Source: Nocardiopsis metallicus (GTDB lineage: Bacteria > Actinomycetota > Actinomycetes > Streptosporangiales > Streptosporangiaceae). Taken from it: a stretch of 64,000 nucleotides of DNA. How positions within the stretch are numbered: the stretch's first letter is position 1; each line of letters opens with the position of its first letter. Location of the stretch: the NCBI RefSeq assembly GCF_014201115.1, contig NZ_JACHDO010000001.1:6386001-6450000 (forward strand), read 5' to 3'. The position numbers and the translations under genes are program-made. The notes under the pieces are model-generated. The model searched no databases. It was not told the DNA's origin and saw only the letters and a program-made list of their open reading frames with translations. Of this stretch, positions 2,650 through 29,070 are shown piece by piece.

Positions 2650-2725
2650 GCCGCCTTAGCTCAGTCGGCAGAGCGATTCACTCGTAATGAATAGGTCATC
2701 GGTTCGATTCCGATAGGCGGCTCCA
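2650..2725 (+). tRNA. tRNA-Thr (anticodon CGU), CCA encoded
   Basis: A complete cloverleaf can be folded. The acceptor stem GCCGCCT pairs with AGGCGGC; the D arm is GCTC/GAGC; the anticodon stem ATTCA/TGAAT encloses loop CTCGTAA, giving anticodon CGU (reads ACG, Thr); the T arm is ATCGG/CCGAT with TTCGATT. The discriminator base is T and the 3' CCA is encoded. A strong hairpin follows 2 nt later. No duplicate of the tRNA 3' end was seen in the next 8 kb, so there is no direct sign of a tRNA-integrated island. Confidence 0.95.
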
Positions 2726-2886: not shown

Positions 2887-2922
2887 TTCCCGGCGGTGGT
2901 GCGCGCTACGGTACATAACGCA
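2887..2922 (+). promoter_or_regulatory. promoter-like element shared by both beta-helix/AAA+ paralogs (copy 1)
   Basis: TTCCCGGCGG at 2887-2896 and TACGGTACATAACGCA at 2907-2922. The same two blocks at the same spacing (20 nt start to start) lie upstream of the second paralog at 6448-6483. TACGGT fits a TAnnnT -10 box. It sits about 77-112 bp upstream of the start at 2999. A shared sigma factor or regulator is inferred from the conservation. Confidence 0.55.
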
Positions 2923-2998: not shown

Positions 2999-5900
2999 AT
3001 GTACACGGTCCGTGTGTCCAAGACCGACCCCCGAGCCTTCTCCTCCCTCGGGGACGCGGTCAGGGACCCTCGGTACGCGAATCTGGACCTGTACCTCCAG
3101 GTTGATCCGGGCTACTACATCGAGCCCCGGGGCGTCGGGGTGCAACGGAAACTGGTGGTGGTGCCGGCCCAGGGGCCCGAGACGGTGGTGGTCGCGGGGC
3201 CCCAGGAGGGCAACGTCTTCAACGTCAAGGGTGAGCTGGAGCTCTACGGCGTCAAGATCGTCGGCAACAGCTCTAAGTACCCGCCGCTGTACACGCACGA
3301 AGGCAGCCGGTTCAAGGCGGTCGACTGCTGGTTCGAAGGCAGCGTCCGGATAGACCTGAACGGCCGCGCACAGGAACTGCTGAACTGCACCTTCGTGGGG
3401 GCCGGTGTCTGCTGGTTCGAGGGCGGCGGTCGGATCGGCAACTCCTCCTTCCGTGACGCCGTCCTCACCCTCGGCAAGAACGCCCGTCCGGAGGTGAACG
3501 CGGTCGAATTCAGCGGCGGGTGCCCCGAGTGGAACAGTCTGACCGTTGACGGCGCCTCGATCACGGTCACCGACTGCGTCATCAAGAACGGCGGGAGCGA
3601 AGCCGGGACAGCGGTGGCCGTGCTCGGCGGTGCCAAGGCGCGGTTCGTCAACCTCTCGCTTCCCGAGCAGAGGTGGATGCCGATCATGGTGCGGGGCAGG
3701 GACACCCGTGCGGAGTTCAGTAATCTGCTGGTGTCCGGCGGGGAGGAAGGCTATCCCTCGGTCAGATTCCTGGAGGGCGCCTCGGGGAGCATCGAGGGCG
3801 CGCGGATCAGCAACATGGGATCCGTGGCCCTGGACGTGAACGACGCGGCCCTGACCGCGAAAGGTCTCGCCTGTGAGGACCTGACGGGCATCGCTCTCCA
3901 GGTGACGAAGGGCAGCGTGACCGGCGGCGGGCTCACCTTCAGCCGACTCGGGAACCATGCGGTCTCCGGTGTCGACGCACAGATCGACCTGTCCGACATC
4001 GAGATGCGGGACCCCCTCCCCAGTACTAACGAGGGCCTCGCCGGTATCTTCGTGGAGCGCTCCCGGCTCCAGCTCAGCCGGGTGCGGGCGTCCGGATCGA
4101 GGGGACCGGTGGCCATCACTGTGAAGTCCGACGCGACCCTGACCGACATCACCGCCGAGGGCGGTTGGGGCGGGCTCGTGGTCAAGGACGACAGCACGGT
4201 CAAGGTACGCGGCCTGCGGACCGCCAAGGCCGAGTGCAACGGCATGCTGGTGATGTCGGGTGCGTTCGTCGAGGCCGAGGACGTCGACATCGCCGAGACC
4301 GCCTACGATTCCGTCTACGTCGAGGGCGCTCGCCTCACGCTGCGCTCGTCCACGGTGAGCCAGAGCGAGGGGCAGGGGGTCGGGGTCCTACAGGGCGGGA
4401 GCGTCACCCTGGAGGACTGCACGATTCGGGACGGCGCACAGAACGGGGTCCAGGTCATCGACGGGAGCAGCCGGGCCCGGCTGCTCCGGGGCGAGATCAC
4501 CGGCAACAAGGGCTACGGGATGGACTCGCACGAGGACGCCGCCGTCCAGGTCGAGGACACCGCCTTCACCGACAACAAGGTGAAGGAGCAGGTCCAGGCC
4601 CACGCCGCGGCGGAGGACGCCCCCGCCGGGCCGGACGCGCCGACGGGAGAGGCCAGGCCCCTGGAGGAGCTCCTCGCGGAACTCGACGCGATGGTCGGGC
4701 TGGACGGGGTCAAGAAGGAGGTCCGCTCACTCGTCAACCTCCTTAAGGTCAACGCGAAAAGGGCCGCGGCCGGGCTCCCCGTGCCCCCCATGAGTCGCCA
4801 CATGATCTTCTCTGGGCCTCCCGGCACCGGCAAGACCACGGTGGCCCGCCTGTACGGGGAGATCCTGCGGTCCCTGGGCGTGCTGTCGAACGGACAGTTC
4901 GTCGAGGCGGCCCGGCAGGACCTGGTCGCCGAGCACCTGGGTGGGACCAGTGCCAAGGTCACCCAGGTGGTGGAGCGGGCCCGGGGCGGGGTGCTGTTCG
5001 TGGACGAGGCGTACGCGCTGTCCCGGCAGTTCGGTTCCGGCTCCGATTTCGGCCAGGAGGCCATCGACACCCTCATCAAGTTCATGGAGGACCTACGCGA
5101 CGAGATCGTCATCATCTTCGCGGGCTACTCCAGTGAGATGCGGACCTTCCTCGACTCGAACCCGGGGCTGAGCTCCCGGGTGTCGAACACGATCGAGTTC
5201 GAGAACTACTCGCCCGAACAGCTCACCACCATCTTCGAGCGCCTGGCGGCCAAACAGAGCAACGAGCTCGGCGAGGGCGTGCGCGAGACCCTGGTCCAGC
5301 ACTTCCAGAAGCAGAAGCGGGACGAGACCTTCGGCAACGGCCGGGAGGCGCGGCGGCTCTTCGAGGAAGTGCTCCAGGCCCAGGCCGACCGGCTCGCGGA
5401 GCTGGACGACATCAGCGCCGCGGACCTCTCCCTGATCCTGCCCGCCGACCTCGAGGGCGTGGTGGACACCGGCCTGTCCGCCCGGGTCGGCGCGCCCAGG
5501 GACGCCGACCAGACCCAGGCCCTGCTGGCCAAGCTGGAGGGCATGGTCGGGCTGGCCGGGGTCAAGAACGAGGTCGCCGGCATCATCACCCGCATCGCGG
5601 CCGCCCGGCGCAGGCAGGAGGCCGGGCTCAGCGGTAGCATCCCGCCGCAGCACCTGGTGTTCTCCGGGCCTCCCGGTACCGGTAAGACCACGGTGGCGCG
5701 GATCTACGGAGAGTTGCTGGCCGCACTGGGCGTCCTGGCCCAGGGACAGGTGGTCGAGGTGGCCCGAGGCGACCTGGTGGGCGCCTTCGTGGGCCAGACG
5801 GCGCAGAAGACCAAGGACGTGTTCGAGCGGGCCCGGGGCGGGGTGCTGTTCATCGACGAGGCGTACACGCTCGCGCGCGAGGGGGCCTCCGGTTCCGACT

Positions 5901-6328
5901 TCGGCCAGGAGGCCATCGACACCCTCCTCAAACTCATGGAGGACCACCGCGACGAGGTCGTGGTGATCGTGGCCGGCTACACGAACGAGATGGCCGGTTT
6001 CATGGCCAGCAACCCCGGTCTGGACTCGCGGTTCTCCGGGACGGTGGAGTTCGAGCCCTACGGCCGGGACGACCTGGTGGGGATCTTCACCGGGATGGCC
6101 CAGGGCTCCGACTTCCTGGTGCCGGACCAGACCCGCCAGGCCCTGGCCGGGGTCTTCGAGCGGGACGCGGCGCTGTACGCGCAGGGCAACGGCCGTGAGG
6201 TCCGCAAGCTCTTCGAAGCGGCCCAGGGCAAGCAGGCGTGGCGGCTCAACGCGCAGGCGCAGGCGGGGCACACGGTCGGCAAGGAGGACCTCCAGCTGCT
6301 GCTGCCGGAGGACGTCGGCGCGGTGTGA
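2999..6328 (+). CDS. right-handed beta-helix protein with two CbbX/SpoVK-type AAA+ ATPase domains (paralog 1)
   Basis: 1109 aa; ATG start with GAGGAG 7 nt upstream. Residues about 1-530 are a repetitive, beta-rich region with recurring x-V-x-G/D-x-x-I/V steps typical of right-handed parallel beta-helices (pectate-lyase-like fold). Two AAA+ modules follow. D1 starts near 550, with Walker A GPPGTGKT at 606-613 and Walker B VLFVDE ending D669-E670. D2 has Walker A at 890-897 (K896) and Walker B ending D953-E954. Both keep NPGL-SR/SRF arginine-finger-like motifs. The AAA+ type matches the CbbX/SpoVK/EccA group, whose members remodel protein complexes. No signal peptide or membrane segment is seen, so it is probably cytoplasmic. 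I infer a remodelling ATPase whose beta-helix recognises a surface or polymeric target; the target is unknown. The homologous gene follows 202 bp downstream. Confidence 0.8.
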   Translation: MYTVRVSKTDPRAFSSLGDAVRDPRYANLDLYLQVDPGYYIEPRGVGVQRKLVVVPAQGPETVVVAGPQEGNVFNVKGELELYGVKIVGNSSKYPPLYTHEGSRFKAVDCWFEGSVRIDLNGRAQELLNCTFVGAGVCWFEGGGRIGNSSFRDAVLTLGKNARPEVNAVEFSGGCPEWNSLTVDGASITVTDCVIKNGGSEAGTAVAVLGGAKARFVNLSLPEQRWMPIMVRGRDTRAEFSNLLVSGGEEGYPSVRFLEGASGSIEGARISNMGSVALDVNDAALTAKGLACEDLTGIALQVTKGSVTGGGLTFSRLGNHAVSGVDAQIDLSDIEMRDPLPSTNEGLAGIFVERSRLQLSRVRASGSRGPVAITVKSDATLTDITAEGGWGGLVVKDDSTVKVRGLRTAKAECNGMLVMSGAFVEAEDVDIAETAYDSVYVEGARLTLRSSTVSQSEGQGVGVLQGGSVTLEDCTIRDGAQNGVQVIDGSSRARLLRGEITGNKGYGMDSHEDAAVQVEDTAFTDNKVKEQVQAHAAAEDAPAGPDAPTGEARPLEELLAELDAMVGLDGVKKEVRSLVNLLKVNAKRAAAGLPVPPMSRHMIFSGPPGTGKTTVARLYGEILRSLGVLSNGQFVEAARQDLVAEHLGGTSAKVTQVVERARGGVLFVDEAYALSRQFGSGSDFGQEAIDTLIKFMEDLRDEIVIIFAGYSSEMRTFLDSNPGLSSRVSNTIEFENYSPEQLTTIFERLAAKQSNELGEGVRETLVQHFQKQKRDETFGNGREARRLFEEVLQAQADRLAELDDISAADLSLILPADLEGVVDTGLSARVGAPRDADQTQALLAKLEGMVGLAGVKNEVAGIITRIAAARRRQEAGLSGSIPPQHLVFSGPPGTGKTTVARIYGELLAALGVLAQGQVVEVARGDLVGAFVGQTAQKTKDVFERARGGVLFIDEAYTLAREGASGSDFGQEAIDTLLKLMEDHRDEVVVIVAGYTNEMAGFMASNPGLDSRFSGTVEFEPYGRDDLVGIFTGMAQGSDFLVPDQTRQALAGVFERDAALYAQGNGREVRKLFEAAQGKQAWRLNAQAQAGHTVGKEDLQLLLPEDVGAV

Positions 6329-6447
6329 GACCCAGCGGAGACACTGTGTGATCGGTGAGTGGCCAGGTGGTCAGCCCAGCCCGGACCGGACCTGCGGTTC
6401 CGGGGGTGTTGACCGACCCTGGCCACACGTGTGTGCGTTGTCCCGGG

Positions 6448-6483
6448 TTCCCGGCGGCCCAGGTGGATACGGTACTTAGCGCA
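6448..6483 (+). promoter_or_regulatory. promoter-like element shared by both beta-helix/AAA+ paralogs (copy 2)
   Basis: TTCCCGGCGG at 6448-6457 and TACGGTACTTAGCGCA at 6468-6483 repeat the element upstream of paralog 1 with identical spacing; the second block differs at two positions. It lies 48-83 bp before the start at 6531, so paralog 2 probably has its own promoter as well as any read-through. Confidence 0.55.
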
Positions 6484-6530
6484 GACCCTCCGGCGCGGCG
6501 CCGGGGCCGATACCCCTTGGGAGTCGATGG

Positions 6531-9500
6531 ATGATCACGGTCCGCGTCTCGAAGACAGACCCCGCCGCCGTTTCCTCGCTGGGGAAGGCGGTGCGGGACC
6601 ATCGCTACCGGGCGGGCGGGGTCCACCTGGTCGTGGACCCGGGGGAGTACGTGGAGCCGCTGGTCATCGGGGTGCAGCGGCGCGTGGTCATCACCCCCGC
6701 CGAGGGGGCCGGGACGGTGACGGTCGTCGCGGCCAACGAGACCAACGTGTTCAACGTCCACGGGGGCGGCGCACTCGAGATCCACGGGATCTGCGTGCGC
6801 GGCTCCTCCGCGGAGTACCCGCCGCTGTACGTGCAGAAGGGCGCCCGGCTCAAGGCGGTCGACTGCGTCTTCACCGCGCCCAGGAGGGTCAACGTGGTGG
6901 GCGCCCGCGCGGAGATCGTCGGCTGTCGCTTCGAGGACAGCGGGCTGCTGTGGGACGGCAGCGAGGGCAGCGTGCGCGAGTGCTACTTCGCCGGTGCGGT
7001 GGTCGCCGTCCAGGGCGAGTGCGCGCCGAAATTCAGCGGGACGGTCTTCACCGGGGCCCACGACGACTGGCACACCCTCTACGTCGCCGGCTCCGCACCG
7101 GAGTTCGTCGACTGCGCGCTGGTGGACGGCGGCGGGGTCTACGTGCGGGACCAGGCCCGGCCTGAGTTCACGGACCTGAGGGTGACCGGCTCCCACGACT
7201 GGCCGGTGCGGGTCTACGAACGCTCCAGGGCGACCTTCACCCGCATGGTGGTGGAGGGCGCCCGCAAGAAGGACACGGACGCGGTCTTCGTCCACGGGGA
7301 CTCCGAGGCAGCCCTGAACGACTGCGAGATCACCGGCGCGACCCGCACCGGGGTGGCGATCGAGGGCGGCAGGCTCACCGCGCGGGGGCTGACGGTGACC
7401 GGCGCCGCCACCGACGCCGTTCTCGTGGACGGCGGCGAGGCGACCATCACCGATCTGCGGTGCACCCGGATCGGCAAGGCCGCCCTGCTGGTCGCCGACG
7501 GGGCCAGGGTCACCGTCGCGGGGATGTCCGTGGCCGAGAGCGGGGAGAAGGAGCGGGGCGCGATCGCCGCCGTGCGCTCCCGGTTCGAGGTGAGCGACCT
7601 GCGGGTGAGCCGCTGGCACGGACCGATGGCCATCGTGGTGGGCGGTCGCGGGTTCTTCGAGGACATCGTCGGCCACGACGTGGGTTCGGGCATCCACAGC
7701 CGCGAGGAGGCCACGCTCACGGTGCGCGGCATGGTGCTGCGCGACGCCCGCGAGGACGGCCTGAACATCCTCGACGGCACCGAGATCCAGCTGCACCACG
7801 CTGACCTGTCCGACTGCGGGGAGGACGCGGTCTACGTCCAGGGCGGGCACGTCACGCTCCGCTCCTGCACCCTGTCCGGCAGCGGGGAGCGCGGCGTCCG
7901 AGTGGGGGAGGGCGGGGTCGCCGCCCTGGAGGACACCGCCGTCCGCGACGGCCGGGGCGACGGGATCATGGTGGAGGACGGCGGTCGGGTACGCCTGGTG
8001 CGGTGCACCGTGTCCGGCAACGAGGAGGAGGGCCTGTGGGCCGCGGGCGGCGCGTCGGTGTACCTGGAGGAGAGCACCTTCAGCGGGAACCGGGGCGGGG
8101 ACGGCGACCAGGCCGGTTCGAGCGTCCCGGGTGCGGCTGCGAGCGTGGCCCAGCCGGGGGGAGGCGCTGCGGCCTGGGGGCCGGGTGAGAGCGCGGTCCG
8201 GGACCGGGCGCGACCGTTGGAATCGCTGCTCGCCGAGCTGGAGGGGATGGTGGGGCTGGAGGGGGTGAAGAAGGAGGTCCGATCCCTCGTCAACTTCCAG
8301 CTGGTGAGCGCCAAGCGGGTGGAGGCGGGTTTTCCGGCGCTCAACGTCAGCCGCCACCTGGTGTTCTCGGGCCCGTCCGGGACCGGGAAGACGACCGTGG
8401 CCCGACTCTACGGGGAGATCCTGCGTTCGCTGGGGGTGCTGGGCAAGGGGCAGCTGCTGGAGGTCTCGCGGGCGGACCTGGTGGCCGAGCAGCTCGGGGG
8501 GACGGCGCGCAAGACCGCCGATCTGGTCGGGCGGGCCCGGGGCGGGGTGCTGTTCGTGGACGAGGCCTACGAGCTCCTGGACGACGGTGCGGGGGCGGCC
8601 GGTGCGTGCCCGGACCCTGAGGGCGCCAGCGGACAGGAGGCCGTGGACACCCTCATCAGGCTCATGAAGGAACTGCGTGACGAGGTCGTGGTGGTCTTCT
8701 CCGGGAGGACCGGGCCGATGCGGGACTTCCTCGAAGCGAACCCGGCGCTGCGGGCCCGGGTGGCGCGCACCATCGAGTTCGAGGACTACTCGCCGGAGCA
8801 GCTGGGCGGGATCTTCGAGGGGATGGTCGAGGCCCAGGGCTACACCCTGGGGGAGGGCACACGCGACCTCCTGGTCCGGCACTTCCGGGGGCGGCCGCGC
8901 GGGGAGGTTCTGCGCGGGGAGGGTTTCGGTAACGGCAACGAGGCGCGCCGGGTGTTCGAGGAGGCGCTGCGGGCCCAGGCGGGCCGGATCGTGTCGGGCG
9001 ACTACCAGACCGTGGAGGACCTCACCCGGCTCCGGCCCGCCGACCTGGAGGACGCGGTCGCCGCCGGGGCGGTCGGGTCGCGCGACGGGGCCCGGGTGCG
9101 CGCGCTGCTGGCCAGTCTGGACGGCATGGTGGGCCTGGCCGAGGTCAAACGCCAGGTGCGGGGGTTCGCGGATCTTCTGGCGTCGGCGCGGCGGACGGAG
9201 GGGGAGGCCGTGCCCGCCGCACGCCACCTGGTGTTCCTGGGACCGAGTGGGACCGGGCGGAGCACGGTGGCGCGGCTCTACGGTGAGCTGTTGGCGGCGC
9301 TGGGGGTCCTGGCCCGGGGGCACCTGGTCGAGGCCGGGCCGGGGCACCTGGTGGGACCGCCGGGGCAGCGCGGGCCGGGACAGGTGGCGCGGCGCACGCG
9401 TGAGTTGTTCGAGCGGGCGCGCGGCGGATTGCTGTACGTGACGGACGCGGATGAACTGACCAGGGACTTCGCCGGTGGCCGCGGGGTCGGTCAGGACGTG

Positions 9501-9935
9501 GTCGACACCCTGCTCGAACTCATGGAGGAGCACCCCGGTGAGGTCGTGGTGATCGTGTCCGGTCGCCCCCGGGAGATGTCCGGGTTCCTGTCGGGCAGCC
9601 CCGAGCTGGCCTCGCGGTTCTCCGGGACGGTGGAGTTCGCTCCCTACGGCCGGGAGGAGCTGGTGGGGGTCTTCGCGGTGATGGCCGAGCGGGCCGACCT
9701 CCGGGTCCCGGAAGCGACCCGGCGGGCGCTCGCGGAGATGGTCGGGGCGGACGACGGGCGGTTCACCGAGGAGAACGGGCACCGGGTGCGGGCGCTGTTC
9801 GAGGCGAGCGTGACCCGGCAGGCGCGGCGGATCGAGGCGGCGGCGCAGGCTGGGGACAGCCCCGACGTGGCCGAGCTCCAGACCCTGCTGCCGGAGGACC
9901 TCCCCGAACGGGGCTTGGGGGGTGTCGCGCCGTAG
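6531..9935 (+). CDS. right-handed beta-helix protein with one intact and one degenerate CbbX-type AAA+ domain (paralog 2)
   Basis: 1134 aa, colinear with paralog 1 from the first residues (M-x-TVRVSKTDP). A beta-helix region spans about 1-530, a Gly/Ala-rich linker about 530-560, then two AAA+ modules. D1 is intact: Walker A GPSGTGKT (K620) and Walker B ending D677-E678, with a roughly 10-residue insertion after it. D2 is altered: Walker A reads GPSGTGRST (Lys to Arg at 910) and the Walker B position aligned to LFIDEA reads LYVTDA (T971-D972), so the Mg-binding Asp and catalytic Glu are both replaced. The SRF arginine-finger-like motif remains. I infer that D2 binds or hydrolyses nucleotide poorly, making this a possible regulatory partner of paralog 1. 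The stop codon lies inside the first unit of the 53-bp repeat array. Confidence 0.8.
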   Translation: MITVRVSKTDPAAVSSLGKAVRDHRYRAGGVHLVVDPGEYVEPLVIGVQRRVVITPAEGAGTVTVVAANETNVFNVHGGGALEIHGICVRGSSAEYPPLYVQKGARLKAVDCVFTAPRRVNVVGARAEIVGCRFEDSGLLWDGSEGSVRECYFAGAVVAVQGECAPKFSGTVFTGAHDDWHTLYVAGSAPEFVDCALVDGGGVYVRDQARPEFTDLRVTGSHDWPVRVYERSRATFTRMVVEGARKKDTDAVFVHGDSEAALNDCEITGATRTGVAIEGGRLTARGLTVTGAATDAVLVDGGEATITDLRCTRIGKAALLVADGARVTVAGMSVAESGEKERGAIAAVRSRFEVSDLRVSRWHGPMAIVVGGRGFFEDIVGHDVGSGIHSREEATLTVRGMVLRDAREDGLNILDGTEIQLHHADLSDCGEDAVYVQGGHVTLRSCTLSGSGERGVRVGEGGVAALEDTAVRDGRGDGIMVEDGGRVRLVRCTVSGNEEEGLWAAGGASVYLEESTFSGNRGGDGDQAGSSVPGAAASVAQPGGGAAAWGPGESAVRDRARPLESLLAELEGMVGLEGVKKEVRSLVNFQLVSAKRVEAGFPALNVSRHLVFSGPSGTGKTTVARLYGEILRSLGVLGKGQLLEVSRADLVAEQLGGTARKTADLVGRARGGVLFVDEAYELLDDGAGAAGACPDPEGASGQEAVDTLIRLMKELRDEVVVVFSGRTGPMRDFLEANPALRARVARTIEFEDYSPEQLGGIFEGMVEAQGYTLGEGTRDLLVRHFRGRPRGEVLRGEGFGNGNEARRVFEEALRAQAGRIVSGDYQTVEDLTRLRPADLEDAVAAGAVGSRDGARVRALLASLDGMVGLAEVKRQVRGFADLLASARRTEGEAVPAARHLVFLGPSGTGRSTVARLYGELLAALGVLARGHLVEAGPGHLVGPPGQRGPGQVARRTRELFERARGGLLYVTDADELTRDFAGGRGVGQDVVDTLLELMEEHPGEVVVIVSGRPREMSGFLSGSPELASRFSGTVEFAPYGREELVGVFAVMAERADLRVPEATRRALAEMVGADDGRFTEENGHRVRALFEASVTRQARRIEAAAQAGDSPDVAELQTLLPEDLPERGLGGVAP

Positions 9936-10176
9936 GCGTCCGTTGAGGGTGGTGGTGGGCGACGTGGCGTGGGGGTGTTGCGCCGTAGGTGTCCGTTGAG
10001 GGTGGTGGTGGGCGACGTGGCGTGGGGGTGTTGCGCCGTAGGTGTCCGTTGAGGGTGGTGGTGGGCGACGTGGCGTGGGGGTGTTGCGCCGTAGGTGTCC
10101 GTTGAGGGTGGTGGTGGGCGACGTGGCGTGGGGGTGTTGCGCCGTAGGTGTCCGTTGAGGGTGGTGGTGGGCGACG
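9923..10176 (+). repeat. 53-bp tandem repeat array (about 4.8 copies)
   Basis: Units start at 9923, 9976, 10029, 10082 and 10135; the last breaks off after about 41 bp. The unit contains CGCCGTAGGTGTCCGTTGAG followed by GGTGGTGGTGGGCGACG. Copies are nearly identical except copy 1, which carries the last codons and TAG stop of paralog 2. A diverged single unit occurs on the opposite strand at 16896-16945 and 48924-48971. Confidence 0.95.
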
Positions 10177-10254: not shown

Positions 10255-10608
10255 ATGAGTCTGTTGTTCATGTTGTTCGCCCTGATGGGCGCGGTGATCG
10301 TGCTTGGCGGTGGCTCCTACGCCCTGCGCCGCGTCCTGGCCCACATGGAGGCGCGCGTCGCCGTGGCGGAGCCGGAACCGCCCCCGAGGGCCGAACACGG
10401 CAACCACGTGGGCGGGTACGTGCCGATCCAGCGCGATCCCGACGAACTCCCCGCCGAGGTGCTCTCCCGGGCGCGCAACCTGGTCGCGCTGGGGCGCGCC
10501 GACGAGGCGGTCCGGCTGGTCCGGACGCGCCTGGGCGGTGACGAGAACCGGGCGCGGCTGGTGGTGCGGCGCCTGGGCGAGGAGGGGCGGCCCGCGCTGG
10601 AGCCCTGA
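10255..10608 (+). CDS. small membrane protein with a possible L7/L12 C-terminal-like domain
   Basis: 117 aa from ATG 10255, chosen because GGTAGG lies 8 nt upstream; an in-frame GTG at 10246 would add three residues. Residues about 1-22 form one hydrophobic membrane segment, followed by a Pro/Glu-rich linker. The C-terminal about 45 residues (LSRARNLVALGRADEAVRLV...) resemble the helical ribosomal L7/L12 C-terminal fold found as an add-on in small actinobacterial membrane proteins. Function unknown. It follows the repeat array and is convergent with a tiny membrane protein gene 11 bp away. Confidence 0.6.
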   Translation: MSLLFMLFALMGAVIVLGGGSYALRRVLAHMEARVAVAEPEPPPRAEHGNHVGGYVPIQRDPDELPAEVLSRARNLVALGRADEAVRLVRTRLGGDENRARLVVRRLGEEGRPALEP

Positions 10609-14238: not shown

Positions 14239-14847
14239 ATGACGGACCGGGATCTTCTGTACGTGCTGAGCTCCGGCCGGGTCCCGCCGGCGGACGCCTA
14301 CAGCAGGCTCCTCGACGCCTATGGAGAGGAGCTGTACCGGCGTTGCATCCTGGTCCTGCGGGACAGGGACGCCGCGCACGTCGTCCTCAGAGACACGCTG
14401 ATCGTCGCCCGCGCGCACATCGGCCGACTGCCGGACCCCGAGCTCCTGGGGGAGTGGCTGCACGCGGTGACGGAGGCCGAGTGCGTGCGGTACCGGCAGC
14501 TCCGCGCGCCCTGGCCCGGCGACTGCCGGCCGCTGTCCCTGCCGGAACGGACGGAGATGGTCCGGGCCAGGGTCCTCAACGGGATGAGCGGTCCCGAACT
14601 GCACGGCTACCGCATCCACGTCGCGGCCCGGGCCGACCGCTTCGGCGATGACGGCTTCCCGCTGCGGCCCGAGACCCCGCGGTTCCCGGCCGGGCTGTCC
14701 CCGGTGCCGCTGGTCGTCGCTGTACTGTGCGCGCTGCTGGTGCTCGCGCTGGCCGGTTACGCGCTGGTCCGCGACCCCGTCCACGAACTGGGCACGGACG
14801 AGGTGCTCCTGAGCTGCGGAGACCCGCAGGGGGCGGTCCGGGCATGA
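14239..14847 (+). CDS. sigma-region-2-like protein with C-terminal membrane anchor
   Basis: 202 aa; ATG 14239 with TAGATT (14225-14230) 8 nt upstream suggests a leaderless gene. Residues about 20-95 (YGEELYRRCILVLRDRDAAHVVLRDTLIVA...LGEWLHAVTEAEC) follow the pattern of ECF sigma-70 region 2. There is no region 4 (-35 recognition); instead one membrane helix (about 157-178) and a short external tail with one Cys are present. I infer a degenerate sigma-like protein that may act as a membrane-bound regulator rather than a true sigma factor. Confidence 0.55.
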   Translation: MTDRDLLYVLSSGRVPPADAYSRLLDAYGEELYRRCILVLRDRDAAHVVLRDTLIVARAHIGRLPDPELLGEWLHAVTEAECVRYRQLRAPWPGDCRPLSLPERTEMVRARVLNGMSGPELHGYRIHVAARADRFGDDGFPLRPETPRFPAGLSPVPLVVAVLCALLVLALAGYALVRDPVHELGTDEVLLSCGDPQGAVRA

Positions 14848-14850
14848 CGA

Positions 14851-14879
14851 AGGCCCGGCGGGGAAAACCTGCCGGGCCT
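14851..14879. terminator. bidirectional terminator hairpin
   Basis: AGGCCCGGC pairs with GCCGGGCCT, extended by one G-T and two G-C pairs around loop GAAAA. It lies between the convergent genes ending at 14847 (+) and 14916 (-). Confidence 0.75.
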
Positions 14880-14915
14880 GACAAAGGCAACCGAGACGCG
14901 TGGTGGCGTCGGCGG

Positions 14916-15443
14916 TTACTTGTCCTCGTTGGTGATGATGTGCGAGGAGTCTCCGTGCACACCGGCCTCCTCGGCGCGCTTCACCGAGGCGATGATCTCC
15001 TGCTCGGCCTCGTGGCGGCCGACCCAGCTGGCGCCCTCGACGGACTTGCCGGGCTCGAGGTCCTTGTACACGGTGAAGAAGTGCTCGATTTCGAGGCGCT
15101 CGAACTCGTTGACGTGGTGAATGTCACGCAGGTGCTCCTGGCGCGGGTCCGTCGCCGGAACGCACAGCAGCTTGTCGTCGCCGCCCGCCTCGTCACGCAT
15201 GCGGAACATGCCGATGGCGCGCGCCCGGATCAGGCAGCCCGGGAAGGTCGGGGCCTTGAGCAGGACAAGAGCGTCCAAGGGGTCGCCGTCCTCGCCGAGG
15301 GTGCCCTCGACGAAGCCGTAGTCGGCGGGGTAGGTCGTAGAGGTGAACAGCATGCGGTCGAGACGGATACGACCGGTCTCGTGGTCCACCTCGTACTTGT
15401 TGCGCTCCCCCTTGGGGATCTCGATCGTAACGTCGAATTCCAT
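14916..15443 (-). CDS. ppa: inorganic pyrophosphatase
   Basis: 175 aa family I soluble pyrophosphatase, which hydrolyses PPi to phosphate and pulls biosynthetic reactions forward in the cytoplasm. Start ATG 15443 ([18 protein letters not shown]) matches the family N-terminus and has GGGAG upstream; an in-frame TTG 18 bp further up is less likely. The active-site signature [20 protein letters not shown] is present (D-G-D-P-L-D). It is divergent from dacB with 76 bp between starts. Confidence 0.95.
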
Positions 15444-15519
15444 GCTGATCTCGGCTCCCAATGCGACTAATGTCGCCGTATAACTACAACGTCAGACCGC
15501 GACACCGAAGGAAGGGCAG

Positions 15520-16875
15520 GTGCCCCGGGTGCGACGGGTACGAGGCGAGGCGTTCCTCGCGCTGGCCCTGCTCAACATATTCGTGCTGATCACCGGGTTC
15601 GTCGCCCTGGACGTGATCGAGGCACGACCGCTTCCGGCGGTGCCCAACCCCGTCACGCACGCCGACGGCGTGGCGGCGGTTGCACCCGCGGCCCCGACTC
15701 CGGCGGACCCGGCTCGGATCGCGGACATTCTTGATGATCCCATGTCATCCTCCGGGCTTGAGGAGGGCCTCTCCGGTTACGTGGTTGACGGCGTGACGGG
15801 AGAGACACTCTTCGAACGGGACGCGGACACCCCGGTGACCCCGGCGTCGACGACCAAGATCGCCACGGCGGTCACCGTTCTGGACGCCGTCGGCCCCGAC
15901 CACGTGCTGCGGACCGAGGCCTACTTCGACCCCGGAACGAACCGCGTGGTGCTGCGTGGCGGGGGCGACGCGACGCTGACCGCGACCGCCGACCCCGCAG
16001 CTTACCCGCAGGCAGCGACCCTGTCGGAGCTCGCCGAGGACACCGCTGCAGCCCTCGCCGACCTGGGGTCGGACACGGTCTCGGTCGGCTACGACGACTC
16101 CCTGTTCACCGGATCGGAGACCGGCCCCGGCTGGAAGCCCAACTACGTGACCGAGGGCAGCACGGCGACCATCCACGCGCTGATGGTCGACAGCGGCCGG
16201 GTGGACCCGGACGTGTCCACCCGCTCCCCGAACCCGCCGCTGGCCGCCGCGGAGGCCTTCGCCGACCAGCTGGAGCGGGCCGGGCTGACCGTCGAGGGCT
16301 CCCCGGCCGAGGCCGAGGCCTCGGGCGATCCCGTCGCCTCCGTGGACTCCATGCCGATGAGCGCCCTGGTCGAGTTCATGATGCTGGCCAGTGACAACAA
16401 CATGGCCGAGTCCATGAGCCGGATCGCCGCCCTGGAATTGGGTGAGGAACCCTCCTTCGCCGGAGGCGCGGCCGCCACCCACCGGGTGATGGACGACCTG
16501 GGCATCGAGGGGGTCAGCCTGTCCGACAACAGCGGCCTGAGCACCGAGAACCGCATCACGCCGCGCGCCCTGGTCCAGCTGGTCAAGGTGGCCGCCGAGG
16601 AGCCCCGGTTCAACGCGGCCGTCACCGGCCTGCCCACCGCCAACTCCACCGGCACCCTGGCCGGGCGCTACTCGGAGTTCTCCAGCTCCCACGACGCGGC
16701 GGGCCTGGTCCGCGGCAAGACCGGCACCCTGGACGGGGTGAGCACCCTGGCCGGGACCATCCACGACCAGGAGGGCAACGTGTTCGTGTTCGCCCTGATG
16801 GCCAACAGCGCCGGAGCCTCCGGCCCCCAACTCGACACGCTCGCCGCGGCCCTGAGCCGGTGCGGGTGTTCGTGA
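15520..16875 (+). CDS. dacB: D-alanyl-D-alanine carboxypeptidase/endopeptidase, PBP4 type
   Basis: 451 aa; GTG start with AGGAAGGG upstream. A basic N-terminus and membrane segment (about 10-30) act as signal or anchor. The penicillin-binding active site is complete: S-x-x-K in TPASTTKIA, S-x-N in SDNNMAE and K-T-G in RGKTGTLDG. Family S13 enzymes trim peptidoglycan stem peptides and cut D-Ala cross-links outside the membrane. It sits upstream of the metalloprotease/tilS/hpt/ftsH group as in other actinomycetes. Confidence 0.93.
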   Translation: MPRVRRVRGEAFLALALLNIFVLITGFVALDVIEARPLPAVPNPVTHADGVAAVAPAAPTPADPARIADILDDPMSSSGLEEGLSGYVVDGVTGETLFERDADTPVTPASTTKIATAVTVLDAVGPDHVLRTEAYFDPGTNRVVLRGGGDATLTATADPAAYPQAATLSELAEDTAAALADLGSDTVSVGYDDSLFTGSETGPGWKPNYVTEGSTATIHALMVDSGRVDPDVSTRSPNPPLAAAEAFADQLERAGLTVEGSPAEAEASGDPVASVDSMPMSALVEFMMLASDNNMAESMSRIAALELGEEPSFAGGAAATHRVMDDLGIEGVSLSDNSGLSTENRITPRALVQLVKVAAEEPRFNAAVTGLPTANSTGTLAGRYSEFSSSHDAAGLVRGKTGTLDGVSTLAGTIHDQEGNVFVFALMANSAGASGPQLDTLAAALSRCGCS

Positions 16876-16895
16876 CCTCCTGTGCCTCGGCGGCG

Positions 16896-16945
16896 CCTTG
16901 GCCCACCCGTCACCCACCACCCTCAATAGACACCCTTGGGGCGAA
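16896..16945 (-). repeat. single dispersed copy of the 53-bp repeat unit
   Basis: On the minus strand the sequence reads GGTGTCTATTGAGGGTGGTG followed by GGTGACGGGTGGGC, closely matching the repeat unit and the divergent end of the last copy at 10135-10176 (which also runs into GACGGGTGGGC). Diverged relative to the array. Confidence 0.75.
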
Positions 16946-17063
16946 CGTCTGCGGAGGCCATGGAGCCGGGGCTTTCGGCCGGTCTCAGGGGGATCCCTGG
17001 GCCTGCCCTGAAATAGCGCCCTGATCCCCGTGCTCACAGGCGACGCGTGGGTAGGCTGGCCGT

Positions 17064-18149
17064 GTGACTGTGATCGACTGGGACGTAGCCGTCAACACCG
17101 GTGTCCGCCTCGTGCGCCCTGGGCCGCAGGTGGACCTGTCCGACGCACGGCAGGCCGTGGCGCAGTTGCGCGAGCTTTCCACCGTGGCGGCCGGGCATGT
17201 GCGCGAATTCACCGGAATGAACCCCCTCGAACCCTCCGGGCCCGCGGTCATCGTTGACCGCCCGGGGTGGATTCGAGCCAACGTGGACGGGTTTCGGGTT
17301 GTTCTCGAACCCGTGCTGGAACAGATGGGCGCCGAGAGGCTGAACAACAGCCCGGCCGGGAACCTGACCTCCGCGGTCGGTTCGCGGATCACCGGGGTGC
17401 AGCTCGGAGCGGTCCTCTCCTACCTGGCCGGGCGGGTCCTCGGCCAGTACGAACTCTTCCTGCCACCGGACCCGGACGGCAGTTCGCCGACCGGTCGCCT
17501 GACCCTGGTGGCGCCCAACATCGTCAACACCGAACGCGAGCTGGACGTCGACCCGCGCGACTTCCGGCTGTGGGTCTGCCTGCACGAGGAGACCCACCGG
17601 ATGCAGTTCACGGCCACGCCGTGGCTGCGCGAGCACGTCCAGGAGCTCATGCAGGAGCTCCTGCTGTCCACCGAGATGGACGCCTCGGACCTCATCGACC
17701 GGCTCCGGCAGGCGGGCGAAGCGGTGGCCGACGCGGTGCGGGGCGGCGAGGGCAACCTGCTCACCGCCTTCCAGACCCCGGAGCAGGGCGAGCTCATGGA
17801 CCGCATCACCGCGGTGATGAGCCTGGCCGAGGGGCACGGCGACTACGTGATGGACGCCGTCGGCCCGGAGGTCGTGCCCTCGGTGGAGACCATCCGCGCC
17901 CGCTTCCAGAAGCGGCGCCAGGCGCCCAACCCCCTCGACCGGGTCATGCGCCAGCTCCTGGGCATGGACCTGAAGATGAAGCAGTACGAGGAGGGCGCCG
18001 CCTTCGTGCGGCAGGTCGTCGCCCAGGTCGGGATGGACGACTTCAACAAGGTGTGGGCCTCGCGCGAGACGCTGCCCACGCTGGCGGAGATCCGCAGCCC
18101 CTCGCAGTGGATCGAACGGGTCGTGCGGCCCGCCGCCATCACGGAGTGA
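17064..18149 (+). CDS. zinc-dependent metalloprotease, DUF2342 / 'F420 biosynthesis associated' family
   Basis: 361 aa; GTG 17064 with -10 TAGGCT 6 nt upstream (leaderless). The signature is HEETH within [13 protein letters not shown], a gluzincin-type zinc motif; the rest is helical. Members are widespread in actinobacteria beside tilS and hpt; the 'coenzyme F420 biosynthesis' label is historic and the substrate is not established. Its TGA overlaps the tilS GTG, so the two are translationally coupled. Confidence 0.85.
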
Positions 18150-28113: not shown

Positions 28114-28353
28114 ATGCTGAAGAAGGCTCTCGCCGCCACGGCCATCGCCGCTGCCGCTGGCAGCGTCCTGTTCGCCGGTGCCCCGGCCATGGCCAACAGC
28201 AACGTCTTCACCTCCGGCAACGGCAGCATCCTCGGCGGCAACCAGATCGTCGCCGACCTGGACGTGCCGATCAACGTCTGCGGCAACGCCATCGCCGTCC
28301 TGGGCGTCGCTGGCGCTTCCTGCACCAACTCCGACGCCAAGGTGCTGAACTAG
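28114..28353 (+). CDS. short chaplin (hydrophobic surface protein) 1
   Basis: 79 aa; ATG with GGGAG upstream. Sec signal peptide (MLKKALAATAIAAAAGS..., cleavage near AMA-NS at about 27), then one chaplin domain of about 50 residues rich in G, N, V with the diagnostic Cys pair in NVCGNAIAVLGVAGASC. Short chaplins self-assemble into amyloid-like films that let aerial hyphae and spores break the water surface. Followed by a strong terminator; a second chaplin lies 475 bp on. Confidence 0.9.
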   Translation: MLKKALAATAIAAAAGSVLFAGAPAMANSNVFTSGNGSILGGNQIVADLDVPINVCGNAIAVLGVAGASCTNSDAKVLN

Positions 28354-28827: not shown

Positions 28828-29070
28828 GTGCTGAAGAAGACGCTCGCCGCCGGTGCCGTGGTCCTCGCCTCCGCCGGGGTCCTCCTCTCCGCCGCCCCGG
28901 CCGCGGCGCACGCTGGTGCCTGGACCTCCGGCAACGGCTCCAACGCCAGCGGGAACATCTCCTACATCAACGGCGTGCACAACACCAACGAAGGCTGCGG
29001 CAACTCCAACGCCGTCCTCGGCCAGTCCCTGGGCTCCTGCGTCAACTCCGGGGTGATCATCCAGAACTAG
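28828..29070 (+). CDS. short chaplin-like surface protein 2
   Basis: 80 aa; GTG with AAGGAG 8 nt upstream. Signal peptide (MLKKTLAAGAVVLASAGVLL..., cleavage near AAA-HA), then a G/N/S-rich mature chain with Cys pair in GCGNSNAVLGQSLGSC. It shares the first residues and domain layout with chaplin 1 but is less hydrophobic between the cysteines. It is the second of two separately transcribed chaplin genes. Confidence 0.82.
   Translation: MLKKTLAAGAVVLASAGVLLSAAPAAAHAGAWTSGNGSNASGNISYINGVHNTNEGCGNSNAVLGQSLGSCVNSGVIIQN

Follow-up and report, generated by a model that had tools for sequence, protein, structure and literature searches.

We analysed a 64,000-nucleotide stretch of DNA from the soil bacterium Nocardiopsis metallicus (referred to here as the window), in which two long genes lie side by side just 3' of a tRNA gene. 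Their products, P0001 and P0002, each consist of an N-terminal beta-helix of approximately 520 aa followed by two AAA+ modules (D1 and D2) of the SpoVK/CbbX/EccA type. The features are as follows.

2650 to 2725, plus strand: tRNA-Thr (CGT), found with ARAGORN
2907 to 2921, plus strand: class A upstream element of P0001, TACGGTACATAACGC, with a TAnnGT -10-like hexamer
2999 to 6328, plus strand: P0001, 1,109 aa, ATG start; beta-helix and two intact AAA+ modules; the motor-conserved, helix-variable type
2999 to 4573, plus strand: right-handed beta-helix of P0001, residues 1 to 525 (AlphaFold2 model, Pfam and VIA-align)
3779 to 4288, plus strand: stretch where the P0001-type helix varies most, residues 261 to 430 (mean column identity of 0.20 to 0.36 per 20-residue bin)
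4661 to 5452, plus strand: AAA module D1 of P0001, residues 555 to 818, motifs intact (Pfam, motif reading and model)
5504 to 6319, plus strand: AAA module D2 of P0001, residues 836 to 1107, motifs intact (Pfam, motif reading and model)
6468 to 6482, plus strand: class A upstream element of P0002, TACGGTACTTAGCGC, an exact match
6531 to 9935, plus strand: P0002, 1,134 aa, ATG start; beta-helix and two AAA+ modules, D2 without catalytic residues; the helix-conserved, motor-decaying type
6531 to 8084, plus strand: right-handed beta-helix of P0002, residues 1 to 518 (model)
8217 to 9026, plus strand: AAA module D1 of P0002; retains Walker A (GPSGTGKT) and Walker B (VDEA), with GR in place of the sensor-1 GY
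9102 to 9878, plus strand: AAA module D2 of P0002; Walker A reads GPSGTGRS, with R for K, and Walker B LLYVTDAD, without DE

The initial annotation had described the pair as tandem paralogues of about 1,100 aa that join a beta-helix to two AAA+ modules. Both open frames are indeed of this size and share 44% identity across their full length (E = 0), and the domain reading is borne out by Pfam, NCBIfam and the AlphaFold2 models alike. Pfam Beta_helix scored 64.1 bits with P0001 and 91.3 bits with P0002 (cut-off, 25.9), two AAA and two AAA_lid_6 stretches were found in each protein, and the top NCBIfam matches of the pair were SpoVK, EccA and CbbX. When each protein was modelled alone (with 18 aligned sequences for P0001 and 17 for P0002), a beta-helix was obtained from residue 1 to about 525 in both, with pLDDT values mostly of 90 to 98; by Pfam score and predicted fold together, both N termini are thus right-handed parallel beta-helices. 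In P0001, a disordered linker (530 to 551) leads to the two AAA modules, which were modelled at lower confidence (10-residue mean pLDDT mostly 60 to 86, with dips to 41), and the AAA parts of both models are of middling confidence (pTM of about 0.5). The top structural match of both helices was 8egr_A, the receptor-binding protein gp15 of phage Andhra (P0001, Z 33.2, rmsd 3.2, 468 residues aligned; P0002, Z 35.0, rmsd 2.2, 415 residues aligned). The AAA module fold matched the CbbX structure 3syl with a Z of 26.7, and p97/Cdc48 was also among the structural matches.

By sequence, the closest solved relatives are EccA1 (9lur; E = 3.8e-56) and CbbX (3syk; E = 2.8e-49). P0001 has Walker A, Walker B, the sensor-1 GY, the arginine of NPGLxSR and the second arginine in GNxR in both D1 and D2. 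P0002 has GY in neither module, and its D2 has lost Walker B and the pore-loop aromatic but retained the NPGLxSR arginine; the loss of the catalytic residues of D2 had gone unmentioned in the initial annotation. NPGLxSR presumably carries the first arginine finger, and we take GY, NPGLxSR and the D2 pore-loop motifs of P0001 to be CbbX-like. GY and the second arginine finger are given as features of the SpoVK-CbbX-EccA clade in the parts of PMC10659427 available to us. P0001 scored 469.7 with the NCBIfam EccA equivalog (cut-off, 466.65), a score in which the two modules sum, and also exceeded the SpoVK cut-off, whereas P0002 scored 296.6 and stayed below the EccA cut-off; with CbbX, P0001 reached 422.6, below the cut-off of 459.25. 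In an AAA tree rooted on class C, the family of the window (class A) lies next to related 1,100-aa proteins (class B). The fusion of a beta-helix to AAA+ modules, which had been thought unusual, has a precedent: as far as the accessible text of Delerue et al. 2023 (PMC10659427) goes, clade members are dedicated chaperones that recruit through N-terminal domains of various kinds, and a beta-helix, read as substrate recruiting, is listed among those of EccA. A description of these Nocardiopsis genes was not found in the literature searched, including the available portions of PMC10659427, PMC13118837, PMC7159879, PMC10597459 and PMC11217815.

Both genes are preceded by the element TACGGTACNTANCGC, which occurs exactly at 2907 to 2921 and 6468 to 6482; with up to two mismatches, the window holds one other match, which has two, against a chance expectation of 0.41 (mean) in all. 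In several relatives, a perfect inverted repeat, CGCTA-N7-TAGCG, overlaps the -10-like hexamer. The case for a shared promoter-like element turned out to be stronger than first claimed: of 19 exact matches in 40 genomes, 18 lie at class A genes, and the element is present at 29 of 30 genes (marginally at one of the 29). This near-exclusive upstream element would make the class A genes one regulon.

In 13 of the 17 class A-bearing genomes of the genus, class A genes lie directly 3' of tRNA-Thr(CGT); they lie elsewhere in 2, and 2 could not be assigned. The neighbours in the window read as a hydrolase, the tRNA-Thr, an exonuclease, dacB, hpt and ftsH, and no ESX locus is among them. Gene content at the site differs even between genomes G000 and G014, although the flanking genes are 97 to 99% identical. 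A survey of 21 site loci for a constant third partner, as had been suggested, yielded none; a 117-aa membrane-protein gene (10255 to 10608) was considered, but it is a resident of the site, being found in 18 of the 21 loci, including 8 of 10 empty ones. Also, no linked client gene was found at the tRNA-Thr site. A mobile element is disfavoured on three grounds: no att-like exact repeat of the tRNA 3' end of at least 13 bases was found at 19 of 20 partly annotated sites (10 occupied and 10 empty), the exception being a 21-mer repeat at one occupied site (L043); a helix scan of viral contigs revealed no helix relative; and the best phage-record matches cover the AAA part only. A scan of genome contigs with P0001 as the query found nothing, whereas a scan with the helix alignment found 14 loci.

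Class A occurs in 17 of 40 genomes of the genus and is absent from 23. Of the 17, 6 have both P0001-type and P0002-type genes, 4 have only the P0001-type, 6 have the P0002-type but no P0001-type gene (one copy, in G012, is broken) and 1 has helix domains only; a P0001-type remnant is present in G018. The dedicated two-component machine proposed at the outset is thus not supported as an obligate one. Singleton homologues in unrelated contexts had been named as evidence against it, and they largely undo the pairing, but the common context stands, with most genomes carrying the genes at one site and the element nearly universal. Several genomes carry helix-only genes at this shared site, most of these genes under the same element (of seven rows scored as helix-only, H_G446b is actually the 5' half of a split gene), and in one genome a single 2,098-aa frame without AAA encodes four helix domains in tandem. 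N. ganjiahuensis DSM 45031 has genes of all three kinds, helix-only, P0001-type and P0002-type. In the helix tree, helix-only genes cluster with P0001-type, not P0002-type, helices. The non-Nocardiopsis genes L121 and L124 contributed to the trees and to the scan for the element and stand outside the identity and motif counts.

Class B, assigned outside the identity set by match pattern and frame length with the helix unread, was found in 30 of 31 EccB-bearing and 0 of 9 EccB-less genomes of the genus (Fisher p = 3.7e-8). In L090, the ESX locus that holds it also encodes EccB, EccD, a subtilase and an FtsK/SpoIIIE protein as large as EccC. The identity set comprised 17 class B proteins (13 from the genus, 4 from outside), without the incomplete L086 and without L083, whose gene had been called as two pieces. 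Class A is not coupled to EccB (4 of 9 EccB-less and 13 of 31 EccB-bearing genomes; p = 1.0), and a canonical ESX chaperone role was rejected for it on that ground. In the window's own genome, EccB had no match in the search that was positive in 31 of the 40 genomes.

What is new here is that the two paralogues are under mirror-image constraint. Median identities among P0001-type proteins (n = 9, without the G446 gene, which is split between two contigs) are 82% in D1, 75% in D2 and 42% in the helix, and the motors are intact, with the clade motifs complete in D1 and D2, in 9 of 9. Among P0002-type proteins (n = 11, without the broken G012 copy), they are 81% in the helix, 60% in D1 and 52% in D2; the DE of Walker B is found in 0 of 11 D2 and 3 of 11 D1 modules, and all 11 frames are open. 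The most conserved stretch of the P0002 helix, residues 356 to 415 approximately, aligns to P0001 361 to 420. Retention of the finger arginines R727 and R1011 in 11 of 11 P0002-type proteins weighs little, since many columns that are invariant in P0001-type and class B proteins are likewise invariant in P0002-type proteins (41 of 85 in D1 and 33 of 88 in D2). The opposite constraint is seen within the same genome pairs: in G000/G438, for example, omega of the helix was 0.85 for P0001-type and 0.29 for P0002-type genes, and that of the helix core was 1.11 (0.73 to 1.64) and 0.18 (0.08 to 0.35), respectively. Across genome pairs, omega was 0.09 to 0.53 in P0001-type motors and 0.13 to 0.29 in P0002-type helices; in P0002-type AAA parts, it was 0.14 to 0.49 in close pairs and reached as much as 0.64 in G000/G022, a pair further apart. 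Positive selection on the helix was rejected because omega was not significantly above 1 in any segment. Shuffling of helix cassettes between the paralogues was also rejected: the helix tree repeats the close groups of the AAA tree (G000 and G438; G022, G448 and G440; G005 and G436), and the helices therefore change fast by vertical descent and not by swapping. The opposite constraint hints at a divided labour in which P0001 would keep its motor while its rod changes fast, and P0002 would keep its rod while its motor dies.

We propose, with a probability of roughly one half, that the pair is an orphaned EccA-like client remodeller with P0001 as the engine and P0002 as a pseudo-ATPase adaptor. 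Within the EccA/CbbX/SpoVK clade of AAA+ ATPases, which remodel dedicated clients, the pair would form an orphaned branch, and its relatives would be the double-AAA proteins with a beta-helix that ESX (type VII secretion) loci encode. Both AAA modules of P0001 should bind and hydrolyze ATP in a ring, which would pull or remodel a client picked by the cytosolic beta-helix, and the fast change of this helix may reflect a shifting identity of client or partner. P0002, a putative pseudo-ATPase whose helix is invariant, most likely offers a docking surface that stays the same; given its fold and its retained finger arginines, it may take a place next to active subunits in a mixed ring. One dedicated promoter/operator element would control both genes. 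Since P0002-type genes persist without P0001-type genes in six genomes, a mixed ring made of just these two proteins is not obligatory. The faster helix change can be relaxed constraint, omega being nowhere significantly above 1; this speaks against the engine and adaptor reading, as do the middling confidence of the AAA parts of the models, the absence of a linked client gene from the site and the co-occurrence of the two gene types in only 6 of the 17 genomes.

Other explanations were weighed, and these are not all mutually exclusive. It is possible, though on balance doubtful, that the genes encode a diversifying remodelling ATPase, in which motor-keeping and reader-keeping paralogues, with helix-only proteins as further readers, would form mixed rings under one operator and act on clients that shift from strain to strain. 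An equally tentative explanation is that a joint machine does not exist and that P0002 and the helix-only paralogues are stand-alone cytosolic beta-helix scaffolds, the AAA part of P0002 being a shrinking relic. The helix-only genes at the same site under the same element, the four-helix frame without AAA, the retention of P0002-type genes where P0001-type genes are absent and the loss of most motor residues from the P0002-type D2 would all fit. However, the P0002-type AAA parts have stayed open over deep divergence in 11 frames, with the one broken exception, and their omega in close pairs is low; therefore, the AAA fold seems to be still selected. Moreover, the helix-only genes group with the other type of helix.

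A conflict or self-recognition system is unlikely. Here, the P0001-type and helix-only helices would be arms-race receptors (for phage or rival proteins, for example), and the AAA+ motor would signal or disassemble the target. The rapid divergence of the helix, whose central rungs have an omega close to 1 in one pair, the patchy presence in 17 of 40 genomes, the gene turnover between G000 and G014 despite nearly identical flanks and the resemblance of the helix to a phage receptor-binding protein (sequence E = 5e-9; fold Z of 33 to 35) are what would be expected from it, but omega does not significantly exceed 1, the phage match may reflect merely a common beta-helix, the helix had no relative in the viral contigs scanned, the best phage-record matches are confined to the AAA part, and the named neighbours look like housekeeping genes. 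Neither was an effector domain seen, and a match to anti-phage defence was discarded because PADLOC matched generic AAA in the AAA region only (IetA, TRIP13, mad8 and others) and gave no match for a helix-only relative.

More improbable still is that class A remains a type VII chaperone and serves EccB-less ESX-like clusters with EccC-sized, EccD-like and WXG100-like genes. The tie of class B to EccB, the two EccD-like loci of the window's genome, each with an EccC-sized frame, and the EccD-like gene in 9 of 9 EccB-less genomes argue for it; class A genes are unlinked to those clusters, and EccD-like genes are found equally in EccB-less genomes without class A (G010, G016, G021, G442 and G444). 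That the family is decaying and has no present function, as the broken G012 copy, the G018 remnant and its absence from 23 of 40 genomes might imply, is very improbable in view of the purifying selection on P0001-type motors and P0002-type helices and the element kept at nearly every gene.

According to the available text of PMC11217815, the function of EccA is still described as unknown, and the protein accompanies all five ESX systems of M. tuberculosis except ESX-4. An EccA-like protein with a beta-helix, linked to EccB throughout a genus outside the mycobacteria, offers a new and tractable way into the question of EccA function. The class A offshoot is a natural experiment in which each paralogue of a genome has kept one half, the motor or the recognition domain, so that the roles of the two halves can be tested apart.

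Among known systems, EccA, the cytosolic AAA+ protein of mycobacterial ESX (type VII) secretion, is nearest to the AAA modules by sequence among solved structures, and the class B relatives sit within ESX loci. However, mycobacterial EccA has TPRs at its N terminus and one AAA module, whereas P0001 and P0002 have a beta-helix and two modules; the pair also lies outside any ESX locus, in a genome without an EccB match. The missing TPRs do not exclude it from a wide EccA family, because PMC10659427, in the parts available, counts beta-helix forms under EccA. These forms share the fusion of a beta-helix to an EccA-like AAA+ module, but their mention is brief, and the same parts of PMC10659427 held nothing on Nocardiopsis tRNA-Thr genes, a pseudo-ATPase paralogue, opposite constraint or a shared element. 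SpoVK is defined there by a short unique N-terminal domain and confinement to sporulating Firmicutes (PMC10659427, available text), whereas P0001 and P0002 have a 520-residue helix and an actinomycete host and do not fit this definition. CbbX, the activase of red-type Rubisco, shares the fold of the AAA module, but its solved chains are single-module and have no helix. Gp15 of Staphylococcus phage Andhra (8egr_A) shares the right-handed beta-helix (profile E = 5e-9; Z of 33 to 35) but is a phage tail part with 12% identity and no AAA+ motor. The type II double-ring AAA+ proteins (p97/Cdc48 and PEX1/PEX6) resemble the pair in their tandem AAA modules and differ in their N-terminal domains, and a mixed ring is putative here. 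For such mixed rings containing dead modules, PEX1/PEX6 is the working analogy.

The paralogues P0001 and P0002, 44% identical across their whole length, are encoded side by side:

2999..6328, + strand: P0001, open frame, 1109 aa
6531..9935, + strand: P0002, open frame, 1134 aa

Pfam finds in each a Beta_helix region, two AAA and two AAA_lid_6 stretches, and SpoVK, EccA and CbbX are the top NCBIfam matches of both. The nearest solved structures of P0001 are EccA1 (9lur, E 3.8e-56) and CbbX, the latter also resembling its AAA modules in structure comparison (Z 26.7). AlphaFold2 predicts, for both proteins, the N-terminal beta-helix read in the initial annotation (residues 1 to ~525, pLDDT mostly 90-98), then a linker predicted as disordered and, at lower confidence, the two AAA modules D1 and D2 (mean pLDDT 83.0 for P0001 and 80.5 for P0002; pTM 0.50 and 0.51). 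The helix resembles the receptor-binding protein gp15 of phage Andhra (8egr_A; Z 33.2 for P0001, 35.0 for P0002), which is also the sole clear sequence match of the helix profile to solved structures (E 5e-9; runner-up 0.038); this match is evidence of fold, not of function. Since inspection by eye revealed no obvious signal peptide at either N terminus, both proteins are taken as cytosolic. A 53-base tandem repeat (window 9918-10176; 4.9 copies, 99%) spans the P0002 stop codon; an exact 30-base piece of its unit is absent from other fetched loci, the match in L002 being the identical stretch of the same genome.

Three related classes were distinguished. Class A, matched from residue 1 like the window's proteins, occurs in 17 of 40 genus genomes. 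Class B comprises beta-helix double-AAA proteins of ~1100 aa, matched mostly from ~residue 340-450 onward and found within ESX loci; in L090, the gene adjoins EccB, EccD, an FtsK/SpoIIIE gene of EccC size and a subtilase. Class C lacks the helix, and its member in the window's genome has a hydrophobic N-terminal stretch. In an AAA tree rooted with class C, classes A (1.0) and B (0.985) group separately; within class A, the P0002 type forms a clade (1.0) and the P0001 type makes up the other branch (0.85). Of 396 Actinomycetota genomes sampled, 33 gave a match at E <1e-70, with full-length P0001 coverage in the window's own genome only. Four more gave class B-type matches (E <1e-150); in eight others, all from one genus (g16), the match took in the helix end and a single AAA module (E 1e-83 to 1e-90), and the remaining matches were mainly to the AAA modules. 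L094 carries a class C gene (14620-17130, - strand; double SpoVK-like AAA, hydrophobic N-terminal stretch, no helix), and class C-like AAA-only matches are present in many genus genomes.

EccB is encoded in 31 of the 40 genus genomes, and class B in 30 of those 31 and in 0 of 9 EccB-less ones (Fisher p 3.7e-8), class B being called from full reading in 13 genomes and from match pattern and frame length in the others. The one EccB-bearing genome without class B, G440, is a draft of 480 contigs. By coordinates compared by hand, 25 of these 30 genomes have class B and EccB on one contig at a distance of ~10-40 kb, and the other 5 have them on separate contigs. The ESX locus of Nocardiopsis and related actinomycetes encodes a beta-helix double-AAA protein (L087, L074, L090 and others of L074-L093); in these 20 loci (L085 being class A), an adjacent gene of 290-520 aa, before or after, is common to 11, a 106-123 aa gene is present in 9, and a proline-rich gene of ~900-1150 aa in 6.

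Class A, found in 4 of 9 EccB-less and 13 of 31 EccB-bearing genus genomes (p=1.0), is not part of the canonical ESX system. EccB had no match in the window's genome, in a search positive for 31 genus genomes and negative for 14 named control genomes. Class A may still serve an EccB-less ESX-like cluster, because the window's genome (G000:C1) has two EccD-like loci, at 2.01 Mb (L102) and 5.28 Mb (L101), both including a frame of EccC size, and an EccD-like gene is present in 9/9 EccB-less genomes tested. L101 also holds two 474-aa frames that point in opposite directions and share their start sequence, perhaps transposases.

The two class A types are under mirror-image constraint on helix and motor. 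Median pairwise identities of helix, D1 and D2 are 42%, 82% and 75% for the P0001 type (n=9) versus 81%, 60% and 52% for the P0002 type (n=11); genus class B (n=13) gives 68%, 80% and 81%. The same opposition is seen at the codon level within the same genome pairs.

Nei-Gojobori omega for helix, D1, D2 (G000, window's genome; others, genus genomes). Absolute values are uncertain owing to GC-rich codon bias; weight lies on comparing domains and paralogues.
G000/G438: P0001-type 0.85, 0.33, 0.53; P0002-type 0.29, 0.39, 0.37
G022/G440: P0001-type 0.37, 0.12, 0.09; P0002-type 0.13, 0.19, 0.27
G022/G448: P0001-type 0.45, 0.20, 0.14; P0002-type 0.13, 0.14, 0.25
G000/G022: P0001-type 0.73, 0.22, 0.38; P0002-type 0.25, 0.46, 0.64

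Variation in the P0001-type helix peaks over residues 261-430, a region that encloses the most conserved stretch of the P0002 type (361-420; 0.89-0.97 per bin). Over residues 261-430, omega was 1.11 (0.73-1.64) versus 0.18 (0.08-0.35) in G000/G438, 0.37 versus 0.10 in G022/G440 and 0.58 versus 0.15 in G022/G448 (P0001 type first). An arms race of the P0001 helix is possible but unproven. None of the values of the compared pairs is significantly >1.

The AAA motifs were also compared. Walker A, the Walker B acids, sensor-1 GY, the NPGLxSR-type arginine and GNGR are found in both modules of 9/9 P0001-type proteins. In the P0002 type, the D2 Walker B acids and D2 GY are each found in 0/11 and the D1 Walker B acids in 3/11. 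The D2 pore-loop aromatic, a residue with a recognised role in AAA+ biology, is present in the P0001 type and absent from the P0002 type. R727 and R1011, retained in 11/11 P0002-type proteins, would fit a role towards a ring neighbour, a weak argument because 41/85 and 33/88 comparable columns are likewise kept.

Both types occur together in 6 of 17 class A genomes (G000, G022, G438, G440, G446, G448). The P0001 type occurs without the P0002 type in G005, G009, G020 and G436, and the reverse holds for G003, G008, G014, G018, G435 and, as a broken copy, G012. Thus, the pairing is not obligatory. Helix-only genes precede the P0001-type gene in G022, G438 and G448, and probably in G446, whose P0001-type gene is split across contigs. 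In G014, with flanking genes 97-99% identical to those of the window, the P0001 type is missing and two helix-only genes adjoin the P0002-type gene; stops were reported inside the match of one but must fall past the frame end, since its 548-codon frame is open. At the tRNA-Thr site, G013 has a single 2098-aa frame (L037 9512-15808, - strand) in which four family beta-helices follow one another in tandem and AAA modules are absent.

In the window's 7.78-Mb genome, P0001 starts 274 bases past the end of tRNA-Thr(CGT). Named from sequence reading, the upstream neighbour is alpha/beta-hydrolase-like and the downstream ones are an exonuclease-like gene, dacB, a metalloprotease-like gene, tilS, hpt and ftsH. 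Among 20 loci from 20 of 24 other genus genomes (19 picked via ftsH position, 1 as a family carrier), the tRNA-Thr site held family genes in 9 and was empty in 10, the contig being too short in 1. Loci added later (G438, G448, G435) are occupied as well, so 13 of 17 class A genomes are known to have genes there. Family genes lie elsewhere in G005, G436 and Actinorugispora (L121); contigs of G440 and G446 are too short on the tRNA side for placement. Named relatives are Nocardiopsis in 12/14 loci, the rest being Actinorugispora endophytica and one actinomycete MAG (L124), which has a single family gene at the site with both Walker A motifs intact. The repeat test gives no indication of an integrated element: of 20 sites checked, 10 of them occupied, 19 lack a downstream repeat of the tRNA 3' end; the single exception, L043, is occupied. 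In L041, a remnant (5137-5322) of the C-terminal AAA module from a P0001-type gene since lost lies between tRNA-Thr and the P0002-type gene. Elsewhere in the window, 28114-28353 and 28828-29070 encode two small secreted proteins of ~80 aa, chaplin-like by sequence reading alone.

The initial annotation had also proposed a shared promoter element. Indeed, of the 30 class A genes scanned, among them two non-Nocardiopsis genes, 24 have TACGGTAC no more than 250 bases upstream. On a matrix built from these 24, whose own scores are therefore circular, four other class A genes scored 16.7-19.8 and G013 was marginal (10.1; shuffled maximum 8.9); the scan found no element at the second helix-only gene of G014, 81 bases past the first, and 17 class B genes reached at most 2.1. 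As an independent test, exact TACGGTACNTANCGC matched 19 times in 40 genomes, 18 of them immediately upstream of class A genes and one elsewhere (G014, 4.33 Mb); reversed, it matched once. Given its TAnnGT -10-like hexamer and, in the elements of 7/30 genes by visual count, the perfect inverted repeat CGCTA-N7-TAGCG, we read it as a putative promoter with overlapping operator.

The combination of a helix with an EccA-like AAA+ protein is already in print; in the open-licence papers searched, we found no mention of the family at tRNA-Thr, of an element dedicated to it, of a paralogue with a dead motor or of the opposite constraint. In the reading proposed here, P0001 would drive the remodelling of a client, and P0002, its counterpart, would not hydrolyse ATP but offer an unchanging binding face; the two may form mixed rings. 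That they act together, as the initial annotation supposed, is a suggestion weakened by the genomes that have just one. The motor-and-counterpart reading draws on known systems: characterised members of the SpoVK/CbbX/EccA clade serve one dedicated client or narrow context, and their varied N-terminal domains may recruit it (PMC10659427); EccA function is described as unknown (PMC11217815), and loss of EccA5 reduces ESX-5 secretion without abolishing it (PMC10597459).
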